38,437 bases of DNA from NCBI GenBank assembly GCA_017548125.1, contig JAFYNK010000073.1, positions 1 through 38,437 on the forward strand, read 5' to 3'. Below, one piece after another: positions 4,524 to 19,748 of this stretch. The position numbers and the translations under genes were made by a program. Under the pieces are notes generated by a model. The model searched no databases. It was not told the DNA's origin and saw only the letters and a list, made by a program, of their open reading frames with translations. Within the stretch, counting starts at the first letter, position 1. Each line of letters begins with the position of its first letter. Origin of the DNA: Bacteroidales bacterium (GTDB lineage: Bacteria > Bacteroidota > Bacteroidia > Bacteroidales > F082).

Positions 4524-6284
4524 ATGAGAAAATTATTTGTCATATTATTGATTTCGATATCGTTGTTTTCATGTAAAGAAAAGAAAGTGTTTGACGGTGA
4601 AAATATTATCCCGACACCTAAAGAATTAATTATTACTAACGCAAAACTTCATCATTTAAAAGATGTTGTAGTTGTTGAATCTGCGGAAAATCTTATTTAT
4701 CCTCAAAATAAGGATGAGTATTTTCTTAAAACACAGAATGGCATTGCGTATATAGAAGGTAATGAAGTTTGGGCGAGACAGACATTAACGCAGCTTGCCG
4801 ACAGCGAAGGCCGCATCCCAGATGTGGAAATCCATGATTGGGCGGCTTATCCTTTTAGAGGCTTTATGCATGATACAGGACGTAACTTTCAGACATTGAA
4901 TATGTTGAAAGAAACGATAGATTTGATGTCGTTGTATAAGATAAATTATTTTCACTGGCATCTTACTGATAATCCTGCGTGGAGAATAGAGTGTAAGGCT
5001 TATCCTCAGCTCAATGACCCTCAATATCAGCGTCTGGGCCGTGACTGCGGAAAGTTTTATACATACGATGAGATTCGTGAGCTGATAACATACGCTAGAG
5101 AACGCGGCGTCACAATAATGCCGGAAATTGATATGCCTGGACATTCGGCTTATTTCAGGAGTGCATTCGGCTTCAGCATGGATTCCGAAGAGGGAATGAA
5201 AGTGCTGGAAAAATGTATAGAAGAATTTTGCAATGAGATACCTGCCTCGATGTGTCCTTATCTTCATATCGGTTCTGATGAAGTCCATATCGCTGATCCA
5301 AAAGGATTTATGACATTCACAGAGAATCTCTGCAAGAAATATAATCGCATTGCTGTGGCATGGGACCCTGGCCTTCCTTCCGACTCAACGACGGTACGTC
5401 AGATCTGGAACACTGCAGCTGGCTCCAATGCGGCAAGCACTAAAAAAGGCGGCCGTTATCTGGATTCTTTCATGGGTTATCTAAATTATTACGATCCTAT
5501 CTATTTCACTAATAAAGTATTCCTTCACAAGGCTTGCGCTCAGGACGTTCCTGATACAACAAACGCGTTGGGTGGTGTTTTGTGTTTGTGGAATGATGTC
5601 CGCGTTGACGATAAGACGCGTATCGCTCTTCATAACGGGATGATTAACGGAATGATGACTTTTTCCGAGCGTTTTTGGAATGGTGGCGAAGGTTCTTGTG
5701 ATGAACTTATGGCTTTTGAGGAAAAGATGGTTTGCCATAAGGAGAATCTGCTTAAGAATCATGACGTGCGCTGGAATCCTAACATACAGACTTTGTGGAA
5801 TATAACGATTGCCGATACGATAAATCTGGAGGCGAGAGGCGGCGCAATAGATGTGGATGACTTGTGTAGAGCTAATAATATTAACACAGGTGACACCGTC
5901 TCGGCTTGGGCTACAACGGAAATTTATTCTGATGAAGATAAGACGATAAAAGCGTGGGTCGGTTTTGAAGCGGCGGCTCGTTCTAACAGAATTTCAGGCG
6001 GCATCGGGCCTCAAGGAAAATGGGAAAACGAAGGCAGACTATTAATTAATGGAGAAGAATATTTTCCGTCACAGGTCTGGAACGAACCAGAGAAATATAA
6101 ATTCCATTATAACACTTGGCATCGTCCGGAAGAAGAACTGCCTTATACCGATGAGCAGTTCTACTGGATGCGCGAGCCAGTTGAGATAAATCTTAAAAAA
6201 GGCGTCAATAAAATTGAGCTTTATATACCTAAGACATTCAGAGGTCAAAGATGGAGTTTTGGATTTGTGTTGGCGAATGACTAA
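4524..6284 (+). CDS. GH20 beta-N-acetylhexosaminidase lipoprotein
   Basis: This predicted exo-enzyme removes terminal beta-linked GlcNAc/GalNAc from glycans. The 586-residue product starts with a lipoprotein signal (MRKLFVILLISISLFSC), so it is probably membrane-anchored. A short GH20 N-terminal region precedes the TIM barrel, which begins about residue 115. The barrel contains HDTGRNF, FHWHLTDNPAWRIE, PEIDMPGHS, and the catalytic pair in HIGSDEV (Asp252-Glu253). A C-terminal beta region (about 430-586) ends the protein and shows no T9SS sorting domain. There is no SusCD pair nearby, so it is not in a classical polysaccharide-utilisation locus. With GH33 and GH89 also encoded here, host-glycan trimming is the best inference. 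It converges on fthC across a heptad array. Confidence 0.92.
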   Translation: MRKLFVILLISISLFSCKEKKVFDGENIIPTPKELIITNAKLHHLKDVVVVESAENLIYPQNKDEYFLKTQNGIAYIEGNEVWARQTLTQLADSEGRIPDVEIHDWAAYPFRGFMHDTGRNFQTLNMLKETIDLMSLYKINYFHWHLTDNPAWRIECKAYPQLNDPQYQRLGRDCGKFYTYDEIRELITYARERGVTIMPEIDMPGHSAYFRSAFGFSMDSEEGMKVLEKCIEEFCNEIPASMCPYLHIGSDEVHIADPKGFMTFTENLCKKYNRIAVAWDPGLPSDSTTVRQIWNTAAGSNAASTKKGGRYLDSFMGYLNYYDPIYFTNKVFLHKACAQDVPDTTNALGGVLCLWNDVRVDDKTRIALHNGMINGMMTFSERFWNGGEGSCDELMAFEEKMVCHKENLLKNHDVRWNPNIQTLWNITIADTINLEARGGAIDVDDLCRANNINTGDTVSAWATTEIYSDEDKTIKAWVGFEAAARSNRISGGIGPQGKWENEGRLLINGEEYFPSQVWNEPEKYKFHYNTWHRPEEELPYTDEQFYWMREPVEINLKKGVNKIELYIPKTFRGQRWSFGFVLAND

Positions 6285-6285
6285 A

Positions 6286-6387
6286 GGCTAATGGCTAAAG
6301 GCTAAAGACTAATGGCTAAAGGAAATTCAACTTTTGTCTTTTGTCTTTAGCCTTTTGTCTTTTGTCTTTTGTCCTTAGCCTTTAGCC
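6286..6387. repeat. Heptad repeat array, two inverted arms filling a convergent intergenic gap
   Basis: The left arm (6286-6322) has five 7-bp units of the GGCTAAA type. The right arm (6332-6387) has eight units of the TTTTGTC/TTTAGCC type, largely complementary to the left arm. The array starts one base after the GH20 stop and ends exactly at the fthC stop codon (6388-6390). The transcript from either side could fold into an imperfect hairpin, and no other terminator is visible between these genes. Confidence 0.9.
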
Positions 6388-6959: not shown

Positions 6960-8372
6960 TTATTTTCCTAGAGCGTCTTTTACATTATTGATTTCTAGGA
7001 ATGTCGAGCCTTTGCTTTCTCCGAAGTAGCCGCCGATATATGCGATTTTATCTTCCATATTGACGAATCCTTTTTGAAGAAGTTTTTCTACTGCTGTAGT
7101 ATATTGTTCGTGCAAATCTTTCTTATCATGTTGATATATAGGTATTATGCCATAACTTAGGGCAAGCAGTCGCATTGTTTTTTCTTTATAACATAAAGCT
7201 ACGACGGGGTTAGGGCCGCGGTATGATGATAGGATGCGAGCAGTTTTTCCTGTGTTGGAGTCTGTTATGATGCCTTTCACTCCGAGTATCTCTGTTGCTT
7301 TGATGGCGTTTTTGGCGAGGAACTCTGTCACGTTGCTGTTTTCGCTTAATTGTATTTCGATGTCGTTTTCGCGCAGTTTGTCTTTTTCGGCTTGTGCTGC
7401 GATGGAAGCCATCATCTTCACCGATTCGATAGGGTATTTCCCTGAAGCTGTCTCGCCGCTGAGCATAAGAGCGTCGGTACGATAATAAATCGCGTTGGCG
7501 ATGTCGGTTACTTCAGCTCGTGTTGGGCGAGGATTCTGTATCATGGTGTGGAGCATCTGAGTCGCGACGATGACGGGCTTGTTGGCGATGACGCATTTGC
7601 GTATAATCCTGCGTTGTATTCCTGGTATGTTTTCAATAGGGACTTCAATGCCGAGGTCGCCGCGAGCGATCATGATGCCGTATGAAGCCTCTATTATTTC
7701 ATCAATATTGTCAACTCCTTCCTGATTTTCAATCTTTGAGATGATTTTAATATCGCTGCCGTATTCGTCGAGGAGGTCTTGTACGGCTTTCACGTCTTCT
7801 TTGCTTCTCACAAAAGAATGTGCAATGAAATCGATGTCTTCTTCTATCGCTAGTTTGATATTGGCTTTGTCTTTCTCGGTCAGAGCTGGAAGCTTGATGT
7901 GTACTCCTGGAACATTGACGCTCTTTTTTGAACCGAGGCGTCCGTCATTTTGGACTATGGCATAAAGAGCGTCGTCTGTCTTATCGACGATTTTCATTGC
8001 GAGTTCTCCATCATCAAAAAGAACGTCGTTGCCGATACTTAAATCATGAACGAAATTGGAATATGATACGTTGACGCATTCGTGAGTGGTCGTTTCAGAA
8101 GGGTTGCCGCATATTTTCACCTTGTCGCCAGTCTGAAAATAAATGTATTCTTCAACATTAGTCGTTCTGATTTCAGGTCCTTTAGTGTCTATAAGAATTG
8201 CGAGATAGTTGGAAACCTCTCTTATATTGTTTATAACTTTTTTTATTCCTTCAGGAGTGGCGTGGGCTGTGTTTATTCTCATGACATTGACACCAGCCTT
8301 ATATAAATCTTGTAAAAAGTCAACCTCGCAGCGAAGGTCGCTAATGGAAGCTACTATCTTAGTTTGTTTCAT
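6960..8372 (-). CDS. pyk: Pyruvate kinase
   Basis: This enzyme transfers phosphate from phosphoenolpyruvate to ADP in the last step of glycolysis. The 470-residue product has the barrel, B domain (about 70-165) and C domain. Core motifs are present: DTKGPEIRT (about 62-70), HSFVRS, SKIENQEGV with the catalytic lysine, MIARGDLGIEVP, and ATQMLHTMI followed by PTRAEVTDIANAI. The N-terminal KIVASISDLR and RINTAHAT replace the common TIGPAS and RLNFSHG forms; this variant is the one I know from Bacteroides-type enzymes, so I read it as lineage-typical rather than damage. It has its own promoter 27 bp upstream and is probably co-transcribed with fthC. Confidence 0.96.
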   Translation of the reverse strand: MKQTKIVASISDLRCEVDFLQDLYKAGVNVMRINTAHATPEGIKKVINNIREVSNYLAILIDTKGPEIRTTNVEEYIYFQTGDKVKICGNPSETTTHECVNVSYSNFVHDLSIGNDVLFDDGELAMKIVDKTDDALYAIVQNDGRLGSKKSVNVPGVHIKLPALTEKDKANIKLAIEEDIDFIAHSFVRSKEDVKAVQDLLDEYGSDIKIISKIENQEGVDNIDEIIEASYGIMIARGDLGIEVPIENIPGIQRRIIRKCVIANKPVIVATQMLHTMIQNPRPTRAEVTDIANAIYYRTDALMLSGETASGKYPIESVKMMASIAAQAEKDKLRENDIEIQLSENSNVTEFLAKNAIKATEILGVKGIITDSNTGKTARILSSYRGPNPVVALCYKEKTMRLLALSYGIIPIYQHDKKDLHEQYTTAVEKLLQKGFVNMEDKIAYIGGYFGESKGSTFLEINNVKDALGK

Positions 8373-8416: not shown

Positions 8417-8992
8417 TTATCCAACAAACTCAGCGAATTTCTCTGCTTGTTCTTTTATTTCATTGAGCTGTTCTTCAGTGAGTTTGAATTCTCCCTTGAC
8501 CCAAGCCTCCATGCCGAGAGCTATGCCGGTCTGAGGTTCTTTCATAACATCCATTTTGATATATTCCAACATGTCGTTCAGTTTGGCGCGGCATGATGCA
8601 GTCTTGTTTTTGCCTCCAGCGCCGCTGGCCGTGACTTTCTTTCCCTGGACAGCTGTAGGATTGGCGAAGTTGCTGATATCCATAGGACGAGACAGCCAGT
8701 CGAAGAGATTTTTCAATAATCCGGGATAGCTATGATTGTATTCCGGAGTGAAGATCCAGATGCCGTCGGCTTTGAGAATTTCCTGACGAACTCTATAGAT
8801 ATGTTCCTGATCATGGCTTAGATGTTGGCCTTGCCCTTTGATTTCTAAATCCTGATTCATGAAAGGAATGTCGTTGAAGTCGAGGTAAGAGATCTCATAT
8901 CTGTCTTTGAGATAATCTTCTGCTATCTTTGCGAGTTGTCTGTTGAATGATTCTTTACGAAAAGAGCCTATGATAAAAAGTAAATGTTTCAT
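8417..8992 (-). CDS. NADPH-dependent FMN reductase family protein
   Basis: This flavodoxin-fold oxidoreductase of 191 residues transfers electrons from NAD(P)H to flavin or quinone/azo substrates in the cytoplasm. The N-terminal strand and phosphate loop (LLFIIGSFRKESFNRQLA) bind FMN. TPEYNHSYPGLLKNLFDWLSR (about 82-102) is the family hallmark, and SGAGGKN near 125 is the second flavin-contact loop. The physiological substrate cannot be told from sequence. Pyk lies 44 bp downstream with its own promoter. I see no TAnnTTTG element in the approximately 100 bp upstream of this gene. Confidence 0.9.
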   Translation of the reverse strand: MKHLLFIIGSFRKESFNRQLAKIAEDYLKDRYEISYLDFNDIPFMNQDLEIKGQGQHLSHDQEHIYRVRQEILKADGIWIFTPEYNHSYPGLLKNLFDWLSRPMDISNFANPTAVQGKKVTASGAGGKNKTASCRAKLNDMLEYIKMDVMKEPQTGIALGMEAWVKGEFKLTEEQLNEIKEQAEKFAEFVG

Positions 8993-9091
8993 AATGGTAA
9001 AATTTATTGATTAAGACAAAGAAGTCGGCGGAATGTTTTAAGTGAAGGATTTTTAACAATTTTAGTTCATTATGCAACGATTTATGCAGAT

Positions 9092-9136
9092 AAAAAGAAC
9101 TCTGAAATTCTAATGTTTTAAAATTTCAGAGTTCTT
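9092..9136 (-). terminator. Terminator of the three-gene operon (copy A)
   Basis: A 15-bp perfect stem (AAGAACTCTGAAATT at 9095-9109, AATTTCAGAGTTCTT at 9122-9136) with a 12-nt loop. The minus-strand U-tract is the A-run at 9092-9096. It is identical to the hairpin at 10146-10187. Confidence 0.88.
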
Positions 9137-9199
9137 ATAAAGTCCTTGAAGTTCAAAAGTCTTAGTTCAAGGTTTAAGATTATTTTTCTTCGCTTAATT
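9092..9199. repeat. Direct repeat of about 105 bp, copy A (3' of the DUF3791/DUF3990 operon)
   Basis: Matches 10143-10257. The first 68 bp (9092-9159 against 10143-10210) are identical. The rest differs by a few substitutions and one 7-bp unit. It contains the terminator hairpin, a heptad array (AGTTCAA type, 9150-9177) and the last codons of the 72-residue gene. Confidence 0.9.
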
Positions 9200-9398
9200 T
9201 TTCATAAAGAGCAACAGGACCGAGATGCCATATCTTCGATGATTCGTTTTCAAGTTTTTTGTAGGTGTCAGAGGAGTATATTTCTCTTATAGCTTCAACG
9301 ATGCCGATGTTTTTATCATCTATAAGCATTTCTGTCATCCATGCAATTTTGCCAGGTAATAGCAAATACAGATTATCTTGGTTTATTTCTAAGTTCAT
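9180..9398 (-). CDS. Small hypothetical protein, third gene of the DUF3791/DUF3990 operon
   Basis: A 72-residue acidic, probably soluble protein with no signal peptide. I do not recognise a named domain. It has a predicted helical body (LLLPGKIAWMTEMLIDDKN, then VEAIREIYSSDTYKKLENE) and a conserved-looking IWHLGPVALYEKL near the end. It begins 2 bp after the DUF3990 stop, so translational coupling is likely. Its last codons (KLSEEK, stop) are nearly identical in DNA to the end of the pyruvate:ferredoxin oxidoreductase gene (KLSEGK), because both lie inside the duplicated 105-bp repeat. The native C-terminus may therefore have been replaced. A role as partner of the DUF3990 protein is inferred from position only. 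Confidence 0.75.
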   Translation of the reverse strand: MNLEINQDNLYLLLPGKIAWMTEMLIDDKNIGIVEAIREIYSSDTYKKLENESSKIWHLGPVALYEKLSEEK

Positions 9399-9400
9399 AA

Positions 9401-9880
9401 TTATATTATTTTTGATTCTATAAATTTGAGCGATTGTAAAGATTTTTCTGTATGAAACAAATATTGATCAACTAATTTGTATGTTTTTAATTCATTTATG
9501 AGATTTGCTTTGTCTAATAATCCGCTTTCATATAATGTGAAAGCAGCATAAACTCTATCGTTGGCTACAGGTCCATAAACGATGTCGTAATGATGGCAAA
9601 AGTTTTTATTTGTTCTGTTGTTCATTACAAAATCAAGCCATTCTTCAGTAGGTGAATTAAAAATAAGGCAATTTAATTGTTGTAATATAGATTCATCAAA
9701 TTCGAAAATGTTAACGAATCCATGAGATGTATTGTTTTCTGCTATTTTGCGTTGAACCCATTCTTTTGCTTGATTATATGATGTGGTGGTGTAAAAACCA
9801 TTTCCATAATCGAGTGTTCTGTTAGGTATCCTTATTTCAGGATGCCTTACTTCTTCAATGCTTCCGTGGTAAAGTTTCAT
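9401..9880 (-). CDS. DUF3990 protein, predicted ADP-ribosyltransferase fold
   Basis: The 159-residue protein opens with MKLYHGS and continues with [21 protein letters not shown] (residues 22-42). This is the pattern of DUF3990, which to my knowledge is grouped with the ADP-ribosyl superfamily. The early His in YHGS and the GFYTTT strand correspond to the NAD-binding H and Y positions of that fold. [13 protein letters not shown] (about 100-112) is the other conserved block. There is no signal peptide, so it is cytoplasmic. It overlaps the upstream DUF3791 gene by 26 bp and is followed 2 bp later by the 72-residue gene. An NAD-dependent toxin or effector role is an inference; activity has not been shown from this sequence. 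Confidence 0.85.
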
Positions 9881-10100
9881 GATTTTTTGGTTTTCTTAGT
9901 TCTATAAATTCATCAATGTCTTCTAAAATCCATTGTCGGCTTTGTGTATGCAGGATTTCATAATGTTCACAAAGGTAATCGAGTACGCCGTATTCGTATA
10001 ATATACGTGATGCTGTTTCACCTGTTATTTTCTTTTCGTTCTTATATTGTTCGATGCAGAACGAAATGAAGTATGCAATATCCTGCTTTTTGCTATTCAT
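9855..10100 (-). CDS. DUF3791 protein
   Basis: An 81-residue cytoplasmic protein with the DUF3791 pattern: an N-terminal helix ([18 protein letters not shown]), the [17 protein letters not shown] core (about 33-49), and a C-terminal [13 protein letters not shown]3791 and DUF3990 genes are known to me as frequent neighbours. It is the first gene of the operon, has its own promoter, and overlaps the DUF3990 start by 26 bp. In a toxin-antitoxin reading it or the 72-residue product would be the neutralising partner, but this is inference. The function of the family is not established as far as I know. Confidence 0.85.
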
Positions 10101-10119
10101 TTTTATTATAATATGTTTG

Positions 10120-10127
10120 CAAATATA
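10120..10127 (-). promoter_or_regulatory. -7 element for the DUF3791/DUF3990 operon
   Basis: CAAATATA reads TATATTTG on the minus strand, matching TAnnTTTG, 20 bp upstream of the ATG at 10100. It lies between the first gene and the second 105-bp repeat, so the cassette carries its own promoter and is not dependent on the upstream gene. Confidence 0.7.
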
Positions 10128-10140
10128 ACAAATTTTACAT

Positions 10141-10187
10141 AAAAAAAGAACTCTGAAATTCTAATGTTTTAAAATTTCAGAGTTCTT
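10141..10187 (-). terminator. Terminator of the pyruvate:ferredoxin oxidoreductase gene (copy B)
   Basis: The same 15-bp stem as at 9095-9136 (arms 10146-10160 and 10173-10187, 12-nt loop), followed on the minus strand by a U-tract (A-run at 10141-10147). Confidence 0.88.
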
Positions 10188-10257
10188 ATAAAGTCCTTGA
10201 AGTTCAAAAGCCTTAGTTCAAGGTTCAGAGTTCAAGATTATTTTCCTTCGCTTAATT
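10143..10257. repeat. Direct repeat of about 105 bp, copy B (3' end of pyruvate:ferredoxin oxidoreductase gene)
   Basis: The partner of 9092-9199, 1051 bp away in the same orientation. It holds the terminator, a heptad array at 10201-10235 (AGTTCAA, AAGCCTT, AGTTCAA, GGTTCAG, AGTTCAA; one unit more than copy A), and the last codons and stop of the oxidoreductase gene. Confidence 0.9.
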
Positions 10258-13200
10258 TCTTGTAGCCTTCGTAGCGAAGTTTTGCATATTGTTCAGTCTT
10301 AGCGAATAATTCTTTTGCTTCTTCTGGGAACATCTTAACCAATGAGTTGTAACGTACTTCTCCCATGATGAAGTTTTGGAATTTGCTCCAGTCTGGTTCT
10401 TTGCTGTCTAAGTGGAAGCCGTTTTGTCCAGCTTCTTCTTCAGCTGGGTTGTAACGGTAGAGGTGCCAGTAACCGCATTCTACTGCCAATTTTTCTTCGT
10501 GTTGAGTGCGACCCATGCCGACTTTGATGCCGTGGTTGATACATGGAGCGTAGCAGATGACGAGTGATGGTCCTGGATATGCTTCAGCTTCTTTGATAGC
10601 TTTGAGATATTGTGCTTGGTTAGCGCCCATTGCTACTTGTGCTACGTAAACATAGCCGTAGCTCTTAGCGATCATGCCGAGGTCTTTTTTGCGTAACTTC
10701 TTGCCAGAAGCAGCGAATTTAGCGACAGCGCCTGTTGGAGTAGCTTTTGATGACTGGCCGCCAGTGTTGGAATAAACCTCTGTGTCGAGAACCAAGACGT
10801 TGACGTCTTCGCCTGATGCCAATACGTGGTCTAAGCCGCCGAATCCGATGTCGTAAGCCCAGCCGTCACCACCGATGATCCATTGTGATTTCTTGATCAG
10901 ATGGTCTTTCATGTCAATGATTTGCTTGCAGTATGTGCAGTCGCATTTTCCTGCCATCTCGATGATTTGAGGAGCTAATTTTTCTGTAACTTGGCCGTTT
11001 TCACGATTGTCGATCCATTGTTGGAAGAGGTCTTTCAATTCTGATGAGCAGCAGTTGCATTCGTAGATAGCTTCTCTCATGATACGTTCAACGCGGTCGC
11101 GGAGTTTGTTTGTTGCGGTCTGCATGCCGAGGCCAAACTCAGCGTTGTCTTCGAACAAGCTGTTAGCCCATGCGACGCCTTTGCCGCTTCTGTTGTTCTT
11201 GCAGTATGGTGTTGAAGGAGCTGAACCGCCATAGATTGAAGAACAACCTGTTGCGTTAGCTACGAGCATTCTCTCACCGAAGAGTTGTGTGATAGTCTTG
11301 ATATATGGTGTCTCACCGCAGCCAGCACAAGCGCCGGAGAACTCGAACAATGGTTGAGCGAATTGGCTGTTCTTGATGTTAGCGTATTTGTCGATGAGTT
11401 CGTCTTTATAAGTCACTTTATGTTGACCATATTCCCAGTTTTCAGTTTCTTCGAGTTGGCTTTCGAATGGTTGCATTACCAATGCTTTTTCTTTAGCAGG
11501 ACATACGTCGGCGCAGTTGCCGCAGCCTGTACAGTCCATTACAGATACTTGCATGCGGAAGTGCATTCCTGCCAATTCTTTAGGCATCTTGATGTCGATG
11601 GCTTTCATTGACTCAGGAGCGTTAGCCAATTCTTCGTCTGTCATGACGACAGGACGGATAGCAGCGTGAGGACAAACCAAAGAACATTGGTTACATTGGA
11701 TACAGTTTTCTGATTTCCATTCAGGGACGAATGTAGCGACGCCGCGTTTTTCGTATGCTGTTGTACCAGCTGGGAATGTGCCGTCGATGATTTCTTCGAA
11801 TGTGCTTACAGGAAGGTCGTTGCCTAACTGAGCTGTCATTGGACGCATGATCTTGTTGATGAATTCAGGAGCGCCTTTCAATGGTTCCAATACGAAGTCT
11901 GGCTTGCAGCTTAATTTTGCCCATTCTGCAGGGATTTCCAATTTAGTGATTTCACCGCCGCGGTCAACAGCTGCGAAGTTCATCTTGACGATGTCTTCAC
12001 CTTTCTTGCCGTATGACTTCACGATGAATTTCTTCATTTGTTCAACAGCGAGGTCGTAAGGGATAACGCCAGAAATCTTGAAGAATGCTGATTGGAGTAT
12101 TGTATTTGTACGATTGCCTAAGCCTATTTCGCCAGCGATCTTGGTGGCGTCGATGATGTACATATTAATATTATGTACAGCCAAATATTTTTTAACGAAG
12201 TTTGGAAGGTGATTCTTTGTTTCTTCTACGTCCCATGGTGAGTTGTAGAGGAATGTTCCGTTGTCTTTCAATCCGCGTAAGCAGTCGTATTTGCTTAAAT
12301 AAGAAGGGACGTGAACAGCAACGAAGTCAGGAGTACCTACGAGATAAGGAGCCAAGATAGGTTTGTCGCCAAAACGGAGGTGTGAACAAGTGTAACCGCC
12401 TGATTTCTTTGAGTCGTAATCGAAATAAGCTTGGCTGTATTTGTTTGTGTTGTCACCGATAATCTTGATAGAGTTCTTGTTAGCGCCTACAGTGCCGTCA
12501 GCGCCGAGTCCGTAGAACTTAGCTTCGAATGTTCCTTCTGGGAGGATTGAGAATTCAGGAAGCATTGGGAGAGAACCGAATGTGACGTCATCGTTGATGC
12601 CGATGGTAAATCTGTTACGTGGTTCAGGACGTTCTAAATTTTTGAATACTGACAAGATGTGAGCTGGTGTTGTGTCTTTTGATGACAAGCCATAGCGACC
12701 GCCGATGATATGTGGCAAGTGTGTGCTGTGGTGTCTGAACAAATCGTTGTAAGCTTCAACGACGTCTAAGTAGAGAGGCTCGCCGTTAGCGCCAGTGTCT
12801 TTTGTTCTGTCTAAGACGCAGATACGTTTTACTGTGTCAGGAACAACATCCAAGAGGTATTTTACGCTGAAAGGACGATAGAGGTGGACGCTGACCAAAC
12901 CGACTTTCTTGCCTTCTGCGTTAAGTTTGTCAACGACAGTCTTGATGACGTCGGTGATAGAGCCCATAGCGATGATGATGTTTGTAGCATCAGGTGCGCC
13001 ATAGTATGTGAAAGGAGCATATTTACGACCAGTAATCTTGCTCATTTCTTTCATATATCTAGCTACTATGTCAGGAAGAGCATAGTAATATTTGTTTTGT
13101 AATTCGCGTGTTTGGAAATAGATGTCTGGGTTTTGAGCTGTACCGCGTGTTACAGGATGTTCTGGGTTTAATGAACGTTCGCGATATTCTTTAAGAGCTT

Positions 13201-13795
13201 TCCAGTTGACGAGTTTTATGATTTCGTTTTGGTCGGCAGCTTCAACTTTTTGGATTTCGTGTGAAGTACGGAAGCCGTCGAAGAAGTGCATGAAAGGAAC
13301 GCGGCCTTCAATAGCAGCGAGGTGAGCTACTGGAGCGAGGTCCATGATTTCTTGTACCGAACCTGTTGCCAAGAGAGCGAAACCTGTCTGACGAGCGCTC
13401 ATAACGTCGGCATGGTCGCCGAAGATTGACAACGCTTGTGCTGCCAAAGCACGTGCTGAAACATGAAATACGCCTGGAAGCAACTCGCCAGCGATTTTGT
13501 ACATGTTTGGAATCATCAACAAGAGACCCTGTGATGCTGTATATGTTGTCGTTAAAGCACCTGCTTGCAATGAACCGTGAACTGCTCCTGCAGCACCTGC
13601 TTCTGATTGCATTTCAACAACTTTAACATTTTCTCCGAAGATATTCTTTCTTCCAGCTGCACTCCATTCATCGATGTATTCTGCCATAGGTGATGATGGG
13701 GTGATAGGATATATCGCAGCAACTTCGCTGAACATATAAGACACGTGAGCTGCAGCGCAGTTGCCATCACATGTCATGAATTTCTTTTCTGCCAT
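10238..13795 (-). CDS. nifJ: Pyruvate:ferredoxin (flavodoxin) oxidoreductase
   Basis: This oxygen-sensitive cytoplasmic enzyme oxidises pyruvate with CoA to acetyl-CoA and CO2 and reduces ferredoxin. The 1185-residue single-chain form has the domains in the usual order: N-terminal pyruvate domain (EAGAAGAVHGSLQAGA, TYTASQGLLLM), CoA/gamma domain (about 410-630), and a two-cluster ferredoxin domain (CIQCNQCSLVCPHAA near 690 and CTGCGNCADVCPAKEKAL near 745). The TPP domain follows, with CAGCGETPY, NATGCSSIYGGS, GDGWAYDIGFGGLDHV and DTEVYSNTGGQSSKATPTG. All cluster cysteines are present. It indicates anaerobic fermentation. A promoter lies 65 bp upstream. Its last codons and terminator were duplicated downstream around the DUF3990 operon. 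Confidence 0.98.
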   Translation of the reverse strand: MAEKKFMTCDGNCAAAHVSYMFSEVAAIYPITPSSPMAEYIDEWSAAGRKNIFGENVKVVEMQSEAGAAGAVHGSLQAGALTTTYTASQGLLLMIPNMYKIAGELLPGVFHVSARALAAQALSIFGDHADVMSARQTGFALLATGSVQEIMDLAPVAHLAAIEGRVPFMHFFDGFRTSHEIQKVEAADQNEIIKLVNWKALKEYRERSLNPEHPVTRGTAQNPDIYFQTRELQNKYYYALPDIVARYMKEMSKITGRKYAPFTYYGAPDATNIIIAMGSITDVIKTVVDKLNAEGKKVGLVSVHLYRPFSVKYLLDVVPDTVKRICVLDRTKDTGANGEPLYLDVVEAYNDLFRHHSTHLPHIIGGRYGLSSKDTTPAHILSVFKNLERPEPRNRFTIGINDDVTFGSLPMLPEFSILPEGTFEAKFYGLGADGTVGANKNSIKIIGDNTNKYSQAYFDYDSKKSGGYTCSHLRFGDKPILAPYLVGTPDFVAVHVPSYLSKYDCLRGLKDNGTFLYNSPWDVEETKNHLPNFVKKYLAVHNINMYIIDATKIAGEIGLGNRTNTILQSAFFKISGVIPYDLAVEQMKKFIVKSYGKKGEDIVKMNFAAVDRGGEITKLEIPAEWAKLSCKPDFVLEPLKGAPEFINKIMRPMTAQLGNDLPVSTFEEIIDGTFPAGTTAYEKRGVATFVPEWKSENCIQCNQCSLVCPHAAIRPVVMTDEELANAPESMKAIDIKMPKELAGMHFRMQVSVMDCTGCGNCADVCPAKEKALVMQPFESQLEETENWEYGQHKVTYKDELIDKYANIKNSQFAQPLFEFSGACAGCGETPYIKTITQLFGERMLVANATGCSSIYGGSAPSTPYCKNNRSGKGVAWANSLFEDNAEFGLGMQTATNKLRDRVERIMREAIYECNCCSSELKDLFQQWIDNRENGQVTEKLAPQIIEMAGKCDCTYCKQIIDMKDHLIKKSQWIIGGDGWAYDIGFGGLDHVLASGEDVNVLVLDTEVYSNTGGQSSKATPTGAVAKFAASGKKLRKKDLGMIAKSYGYVYVAQVAMGANQAQYLKAIKEAEAYPGPSLVICYAPCINHGIKVGMGRTQHEEKLAVECGYWHLYRYNPAEEEAGQNGFHLDSKEPDWSKFQNFIMGEVRYNSLVKMFPEEAKELFAKTEQYAKLRYEGYKKLSEGK

Positions 13796-16266: not shown

Positions 16267-16276
16267 GTTTTTTTAA

Positions 16277-16309
16277 GACTACAAGACCACAAGACTACAA
16301 GACAACAAG
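16277..16309. repeat. 8-bp tandem repeat array (four units)
   Basis: Units GACTACAA, GACCACAA, GACTACAA, GACAACAA, plus one base. It is the complement of the unit family at 218-265. It lies directly upstream of the ftsB-like promoter and about 70 bp from the poly-C tract. Confidence 0.85.
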
Positions 16310-19688: not shown

Positions 19689-19692
19689 TTAA

Positions 19693-19748
19693 TTAGGAAT
19701 TAGGAATTAGGAGTTAGGAATTAGGAATTAGGAGTTAGGAATTAGGAG
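19693..19748. repeat. Heptad repeat array (eight units of TTAGGAA/TTAGGAG)
   Basis: Eight exact 7-bp units that differ only in the last base, in the order A A G A A G A G. It starts 4 bp after the tolC-like stop and precedes the inverted repeat and promoter of the adaptor gene. Confidence 0.95.

Follow-up and report, generated by a model that had tools for sequence, protein, structure and literature searches.

A PDC-M13 cassette, probably a toxin-antitoxin unit, inserted behind nifJ in a Bacteroidales genome and apparently capped by a duplicate of the nifJ 3′ end

Introduction

How does a very small defence unit enter a chromosome when it brings neither an integrase nor a transposase? The entry route of such units is poorly understood, and defence genes turn over fast. 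A locus that raises this question lies on a 38,437-nt stretch of DNA from a Bacteroidales bacterium of the GTDB lineage F082 (assembly GCA_017548125.1, contig JAFYNK010000073.1, positions 1 to 38,437 of the forward strand), which we call the window and whose numbering is used throughout. On its minus strand, nifJ, which encodes pyruvate:ferredoxin (flavodoxin) oxidoreductase, is followed by a cassette of three small genes (M13A, M13B, and M13C) that stands between two copies of a sequence containing the nifJ 3′ end. A preliminary description had proposed that the cassette entered by, or caused, a duplication of the end of its host gene. The joint at nifJ can be read to the base: there are an empty and a filled site, a copied stop codon and terminator, and M13C, the final cassette protein, has six C-terminal residues derived from the target gene. 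We read the locus, at a probability of roughly 0.6, as a recombinase-less PDC-M13 cassette, probably of the toxin-antitoxin kind, that was inserted 3′ of nifJ and has a copied nifJ 3′ end as its cap.

Results and discussion

The cassette stands between two copies of the nifJ 3′ end

The host gene is intact: nifJ occupies 10238..13795 on the minus strand as an open reading frame (ORF) of 1185 aa with the Pfam domains POR_N, POR, EKR, and PFOR_II, and ends in KLSEGK. Its last six codons and stop, a heptad array, and a terminator make up repeat R1 (10127..10258), and the same order recurs in R2 (9076..9200), a copy of the nifJ 3′ end that now closes and terminates the cassette. A repeat search returned a core of 99 nt (9076-9174 against 10127-10225, 93% identity, spacing 1051), which a second block (9165-9200 and 10223-10258) extends after a 7-nt heptad difference; by counting, a run of 68 nt is identical between the two copies. 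The spacing and the identical run had been given correctly in the preliminary description, as had the contents of each repeat (hairpin, heptads, and the last codons of a gene, KLSEGK in nifJ and KLSEEK in M13C); the two copies are real, with the small correction that each begins within a coding end and so extends over 9076-9200 or 10127-10258. Both repeats, which like the genes read on the minus strand, hold the same 19-bp hairpin with a T-run (10146..10187 in R1 and 9095..9136 in R2, from a hairpin search), and R1 and R2 fold better than shuffled sequences (z of -4.4 and -4.9). There was no Rfam match at gathering score within 8900-10700.

Between the repeats, the only ORFs of at least 60 aa are M13A (9855..10100, 81 aa), M13B (9401..9880, 159 aa), and M13C (9180..9398, 72 aa), and there is no site-specific recombinase gene among them. 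All three lie on the minus strand; M13A and M13B overlap by 26 nt, and M13B and M13C are 2 nt apart. The sequence CAAATATA at 10120-10127, which is TATATTTG on the minus strand, fits TAnnTTTG, which we take to be the Bacteroidetes −7 promoter box, and the same box precedes the corresponding cassettes of two relatives, G016 and G035. The cassette is self-contained, with its own promoter and three co-directional genes, and the transcription unit drawn earlier, from promoter box through three overlapping or nearly abutting genes to a terminator, was found as described.

If R1 and R2 were chance copies of a common type of terminator and heptad array, they would be uninformative on insertion. Heptad arrays are indeed frequent in the window, and other units also have flanking repeats, but the exact hairpin pattern occurs at two sites only, R1 and R2, in the 2.73-Mb genome to which the window belongs, and the similarity spans coding sequence, stop, heptads, and hairpin alike. 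When 1280 segments of 60 nt from the 38 kb were compared, nine had a second same-strand copy (at least 85% identity over at least 45 nt), five of them the R1/R2 repeat and four a dispersed repeat at the contig ends. We also scanned 507 genes in 707 kb for a second copy, within 6 kb, of a gene's last codons, stop, and terminator; paralogue pairs excluded, nifJ was the one case, and since the window had been put into this sample by choice, the figure for the remaining genes is 0/506. The scan gave 77 matches, which besides nifJ were paralogue pairs, dispersed or heptad repeats, and shorter stop-spanning matches (e.g., L161, L163, L291, and L159). With an empty site in G033 (see below), chance copying becomes a highly improbable account of the repeats. 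Among the control hits for flanking repeats (see below), judged by eye, L157 at 13065 and L042 look like RAYT genes with hairpins resembling repetitive extragenic palindromes, L148 at 3371, L153, and L157 at 2113 are tandem paralogues, and L148 at 9468 consists of heptads.

The nifJ junction is empty in some relatives and filled in others

Using the repeat and the nifJ end as queries, we searched 99 genomes of the genus and read the loci nearest to the window nifJ. In G033 (locus L016), nifJ is followed by a single R, the gene for an NADPH-dependent flavin mononucleotide (FMN) reductase, and a pyruvate kinase gene, and the cassette is absent. The same FMN reductase gene in the window (8417..8992, minus strand; PF03358, 103 bits) is the right neighbour of the empty site, followed by the pyruvate kinase gene (6960..8372, minus strand, named by eye), and this flank is common to the window, G016, and G033. 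In G010, nifJ adjoins the FMN reductase gene with a different terminator, again with no cassette, and G029 has a single R, then a gene for a 788-aa outer-membrane protein, and then the FMN reductase gene, with no trio there. G016 has nifJ-R-trio-R in the gene order of the window. In G035, nifJ and R are followed by M13A and M13C, a second R, a gene of the PDC-S11 defence candidate (L193 1452-2555, 1.2e-123), and the FMN reductase gene, and in G009 a diverged trio lies near nifJ, beyond an inverted FMN reductase gene and with no repeats. The other nifJ ends that were fetched have different neighbours. The single nifJ repeat of G029 matches R1 at 108 of 113 positions, marking R1 as the native copy, and the repeat search found no R elsewhere in the window's own genome. 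From these states we conclude that the nifJ-FMN reductase junction is a small insertion hotspot and that R belongs to nifJ. Entry with duplication of the host 3′ end, as first proposed, thus has its single-repeat, cassette-free relative, and rather than standing unflanked at this site in all relatives, the trio of G016 and the pair of G035 each lie between two repeats.

The end of M13C tells the same story from inside the cassette. After duplicates were dropped, KLSEEK ended M13C in three of 175 distinct cassettes, all three at nifJ, and was absent from the other 172, so that this C-terminus did not turn up away from the oxidoreductase gene. Close M13C proteins elsewhere end in sequences like VALYEELQEE or ALYKELEEEL, and the last 21 nt of the window M13C, its final six codons and stop (9180..9200), match the G029 nifJ end exactly. 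The restriction of KLSEEK to nifJ cassettes indicates that the end of M13C was copied from nifJ.

We therefore regard insertion with copying of the nifJ 3′ end as likely. The insertion event would have placed the nifJ sequence from the sixth-last codon through stop, heptads, and terminator on both sides of the cassette; the left copy would keep nifJ whole and terminated, and the right copy would supply the final codons, stop, and terminator of M13C. Whether the joining was free of a recombinase is, in our estimate, an even bet. The first joining might have used chance similarity between the M13C and nifJ ends, through illegitimate, homology-assisted recombination or template switching, and later recombination between the repeats would homogenise the copies and could move or remove the cassette. 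Clean excision through the repeats, which the preliminary description had predicted, is a possible outcome; among the loci read, there was no genome whose state must be excision.

Repeats appear homogenised or remade within genomes, and the cassette has moved between lineages

The two repeats are 92.8% identical in the window (116/125) and 97.1% in G016 (99/102), while repeats of the three filled genomes (window, G016, and G035) are 81-88% identical to one another. In alignment columns, the window and G016 gave 12 with a within-genome pattern and three with an orthologous pattern, and the window and G035 gave seven and four. This within-genome likeness indicates that the copies were homogenised or remade in one lineage or more. 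The cassette genes of G016 and G035 have a synonymous divergence (dS) of only 0.19-0.22, as against 0.90 for the FMN reductase gene and 0.37 for nifJ, which shows that the cassette passed between these two lineages at the nifJ site. The window and G016 differ more in the cassette (dS 0.76-0.83; nifJ 0.37, FMN reductase 1.42), values compatible with old common descent.

Several observations weigh against our reading. The two repeats of G035 are only about 83% alike (82.9%), and the G016/G035 columns lean the other way, with three of the within-genome and five of the orthologous pattern. By eye, the window and G016 are unlike each other over the roughly 50-60 nt that separate R2 from the conserved flank of the FMN reductase gene, and this stretch could have been left by a different history of insertion. 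In its native form, the M13C end already looks like that of nifJ (YKELEEEL against YKKLSEEK; 19/27 nt in register, counted between the G009 M13C and the G029 nifJ), so part of the coding similarity is older than the copying; this chance similarity may also have guided the joining. The genomes of the relatives are multi-contig assemblies. Finally, in the class as a whole, flanking repeats are not enriched around the trio: 13/166 trios reached score 60, compared to 9/161 control units bounded by intergenic sequence (p 0.28).

Some of these points would suit a different order of events, in which the cassette at first entered the space from the nifJ terminator to the FMN reductase gene with no duplication, and gene conversion or template switching later wrote the nifJ end over that of M13C. 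Such copying could have been seeded by the native M13C end, given its closeness to the nifJ end; the repeats of the window and G016 converge within genomes, the 50-60 nt beyond R2 are unrelated, and the diverged trio of G009 lies near nifJ with no repeats. Yet all three filled sites with a close cassette have R2 and no intermediate was seen among them, and the duplications at other sites (described below) involve unrelated gene ends (L070 and L086) and a tRNA (L055). We consider this order of events quite unlikely.

Flanking repeats are not a hallmark of the trio

The control units of the 166-trio test came partly from DNA adjoining trios, and duplicates and units with short flanks were dropped. 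Measured against all control units, the trios did stand out at score 60 (13 of 166 vs. 11/431, p 0.005); at score 34, the comparison was 18/166 for trios vs. 10/161 for intergenic-bounded controls (p 0.10) and 14/431 for all controls (p 0.0005). A wider test placed 17 of 100 genus cassettes at or above the 99th percentile of cross-locus pairs, and pseudo-cassettes from the same genomes gave 17/186, or 8/51 when intergenic space lay on both sides. The early signal of a class-wide mobility signature was undone by these pseudo-cassettes and by the intergenic-bounded controls, and so we do not claim enrichment. Among named Bacteroidales loci, 9/79 reached score 60; for genus HepT and ferritin loci the counts were 1/29 and 0/29 at score 60 and three and none at score 34. 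L053, which is the same place as L028, was dropped, along with cassettes with short flanks (five of 105 in the genus and one of 80 in the named Bacteroidales) and one of 30 in each of the HepT and ferritin sets. Most cassettes examined have no clear 3′-end duplication, and comparable repeats flank other units in the same genomes. A PADLOC scan of 70 control proteins gave counts per model and not per protein, and no rate is claimed from it.

Similar duplications occur at other sites

The preliminary description had suggested looking for the same trio between other repeats. This was borne out in part: three further 3′-end duplications were found, while most cassettes have none and other units behave alike. 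At L070 (G069), the cassette lies in the duplicated 43-nt 3′ end of an HD-phosphohydrolase gene (Pfam HD), and the repeat supplies the stop of M13C out of frame. At L086 (G011), a fusion of M13C and M13A together with M13B lies in the duplicated 62-nt 3′ end of an rmlB-like gene (the rmlB identity is our own assignment). At L055 (G034), a trio has a tRNA-Phe 3′ end and its terminator on one side and a partial copy on the other. In both G069 and G011, a third copy of the repeat closes a second insert, so that the order is host-R-cassette-R-cassette-R. The gene found beyond the last repeat copy in G069 comes immediately after the HD gene in G091 and G077. At L115, L215, and L267, a hairpin and T-run are duplicated and nothing more. 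The first scan also showed heptad arrays at L085 and L086, and a 105-aa protein adjoining the HD gene in G020 (L191 3653-3967, minus strand) has a borderline Cas2 match (6.4e-5, 23.5 bits, with a cut-off of 23.8).

Integration of the integrase type is usually recognised by direct repeats at the 3′ end of a gene, with the gene restored, and the nifJ repeats show that sign. The cassette could on this account be the remnant or satellite of an integrative element that had its attB in the nifJ 3′ end, with R1 and R2 as attL and attR and an integrase that was lost or acted in trans. The tRNA-Phe locus is of the same form, and the arrays of G069 and G011 look like serial accretion. Against this, neither the ORFs nor Pfam revealed a recombinase in the window cassette or in the second segments of the two arrays, where one 92-aa ORF has no Pfam match; the repeats differ between sites, from 31 to about 130 nt; and the frame of the last cassette gene enters the repeat, in frame in the window and out of frame at L070, which suggests an imprecise right end. 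An integrative remnant is unlikely in our judgment.

Units other than the trio were found in the same arrangement. At L219 (3803-4469, minus strand), next to a trio, a nucleotidyltransferase-HepT pair follows a gene for elongation factor G (EF-G, assigned by eye from its reading frame), whose last eight residues (EESKQDED), stop, and terminator are duplicated as the end of HepT over 84/85 nt. At L225 (4787-5485, minus strand), also next to a trio, a CAAX-protease-like gene ends in SKGRQGAAY, the last residues of the preceding gene, within a 31-nt repeat with 29 matches. The repeats thus vary by site in sequence and length, units with no trio included. Together with nifJ and its trio and with the HD and rmlB-like genes that have two inserts each, these cases raise the more speculative idea, of which we are doubtful, that small recombinase-less toxin-antitoxin or defence units might generally enter chromosomes capped by a copied 3′ end of a neighbour, leaving the target intact and duplicating its last codons, its stop, and/or its terminator, so that the last gene of the incoming unit acquires this ending. 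If this were general, it would explain how small modules come to sit beside core genes at no cost, and a small module followed by a repeat of the preceding gene's 3′ end would serve as a search rule for defence or addiction units not yet known. At nifJ itself, excision between the repeats and exchange at the site become directly testable.

Several further repeats were noted around these loci. Those at L117 and L124 and at three HepT matches contain a promoter-like TTTGC sequence. At L149, a chloramphenicol-acetyltransferase-like gene (2085-2696, by eye) lies between two near-identical tRNA-Ser-like copies. ORF6N and DUF1016 genes at L161 7442-8452, L149 11161-12318, and L163 17440-18351 have flanking direct repeats of about 105, 178, and 31 nt, and the protein of L149 11161-12318 matches PDC-S02 models.

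The trio matches a defence candidate and probably acts as a toxin-antitoxin unit

The three proteins match the PDC-M13 models of PADLOC in the order A-B-C: M13A, a DUF3791 protein (PF12668, 74 bits; PDLC04433, 2.2e-35), M13B, a DUF3990 protein (PF13151, 175 bits, 9e-52; PDLC04438, 9.5e-67), and M13C (PDLC04441, 2.2e-32). The trio is therefore a known phage-defence candidate, so that the defence module thought possible at the outset has a name, and defence has candidate status only. A survey of 6530 rumen genomes and metagenome-assembled genomes counts PDC-M13 3324 times (PMC13356809).

DUF3990 (PF13151) is listed as a member of the Pfam ART clan (PMC7955679), in keeping with the ADP-ribosyltransferase-like pattern that had been recognised in the window protein, and it is given as the C-terminal domain of Rhs5, a predicted type VI Rhs effector of Serratia (PMC4524185). 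Conservation among DUF3990 sequences is nearly complete at H5 (176/176), Y30 (176/176), and Q139 (175/176). These residues, whose positions were assigned by eye, fit the HY-[E,D,Q] triad of ADP-ribosyltransferases described for CmdT (PMC11618068). By sequence search, DUF3990 had no credible relative in the PDB. M13A is distantly related to M13C (hhalign probability 86, E 5e-6), and five loci have the two fused beside M13B, by eye as C-A. Purifying selection acts on all three genes, with ratios of nonsynonymous to synonymous divergence (dN/dS) of 0.03-0.11 overall, and it is strong between the window and G016 (0.07-0.08; 0.07 for M13A).

The trio loci fetched were mostly the best of the matches listed, and the sample leans to close relatives. 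Within it, 92 of the 105 genus cassettes are A-B-C, and two have M13B alone in another gene context. Small adjacent partners and an M13B that seldom stands alone among these cassettes are features of type II toxin-antitoxin systems. At the nifJ site of G035, M13A and M13C are kept and DUF3990 is missing, as expected for a toxin with two antitoxin parts. On these grounds we think it rather probable that the cassette acts as a toxin-antitoxin unit: M13B would be an HY-Q ADP-ribosyltransferase toxin, restrained by the related small proteins M13A and M13C as putative antitoxin parts, and the cassette would be retained as a defence or addiction module.

Among other occurrences of the domain, L052 and L135 have DUF3990 genes with neither M13A nor M13C, placed after a gene that by eye resembles an AbiEii-type nucleotidyltransferase. 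An in-frame TGA in many DUF3990 matches was followed up and proved to be the terminal stop only in the 14 loci checked. DUF3990 matches were present in 74 of 72,556 plasmid records, one at >60% identity, and distant ones in 9/50,697 phage records; this search found no relatives in viral_contigs.

The cassette compared with known mobile and defence systems

Although the window proteins match all three PDC-M13 models in the same order, nothing seen on PDC-M13 involves a copied host gene end. CmdTAC resembles the cassette in that the triad of CmdT fits H5, Y30, and Q139 of DUF3990, but it includes a SecB-like chaperone and its antitoxin is another one, whereas both partners in the window are small DUF3791-type proteins; the main text of the CmdTAC paper is without the term DUF3990 (PMC11618068).

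Genomic islands that have integrated at the 3′ end of a gene or tRNA are flanked by attL and attR. Like them, the nifJ cassette has direct repeats that equal the 3′ end of a restored target, and the empty target is found elsewhere. It differs in being about 1 kb, in lacking an integrase, in having repeats whose sequence is specific to the site, and in having a cassette gene fused to the repeat. Integron gene cassettes share a recombination site and are moved by IntI, a description that does not apply here, as the repeats differ between sites and the cassette has no integrase.

In the minimal mobile element of Neisseria, differing whole-gene cassettes occupy the space between two conserved genes across strains (PMC3898611). 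The nifJ-FMN reductase space is likewise variable, holding nothing, the trio, the pair with PDC-S11, or an outer-membrane protein gene. Minimal mobile elements enter by homologous recombination, with which the low G016-G035 cassette dS is compatible; a copied upstream 3′ end and a borrowed C-terminus are outside the definition given in that report (PMC3898611). The nifJ cassette works like an attL/attR island minus the recombinase, or like a minimal mobile element plus a duplicated end. Judged by titles or the start of abstracts in the open-licence literature searched, this arrangement was not found described.

Other repeats in the window

Tandem arrays whose units measure 7-8 nt or multiples thereof, resembling the heptads of R, lie at 217-267, 1674-1754, 6271-6383, 16275-16309, and 19691-19747. 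One dispersed repeat, about 80-130 nt long and palindromic in its core, lies at both ends of the contig (1-104 and 38336-38437). It is present in nine of 28 other stretches of the same genome, in seven of the nine at or near a contig end, and so contigs seem to break there.

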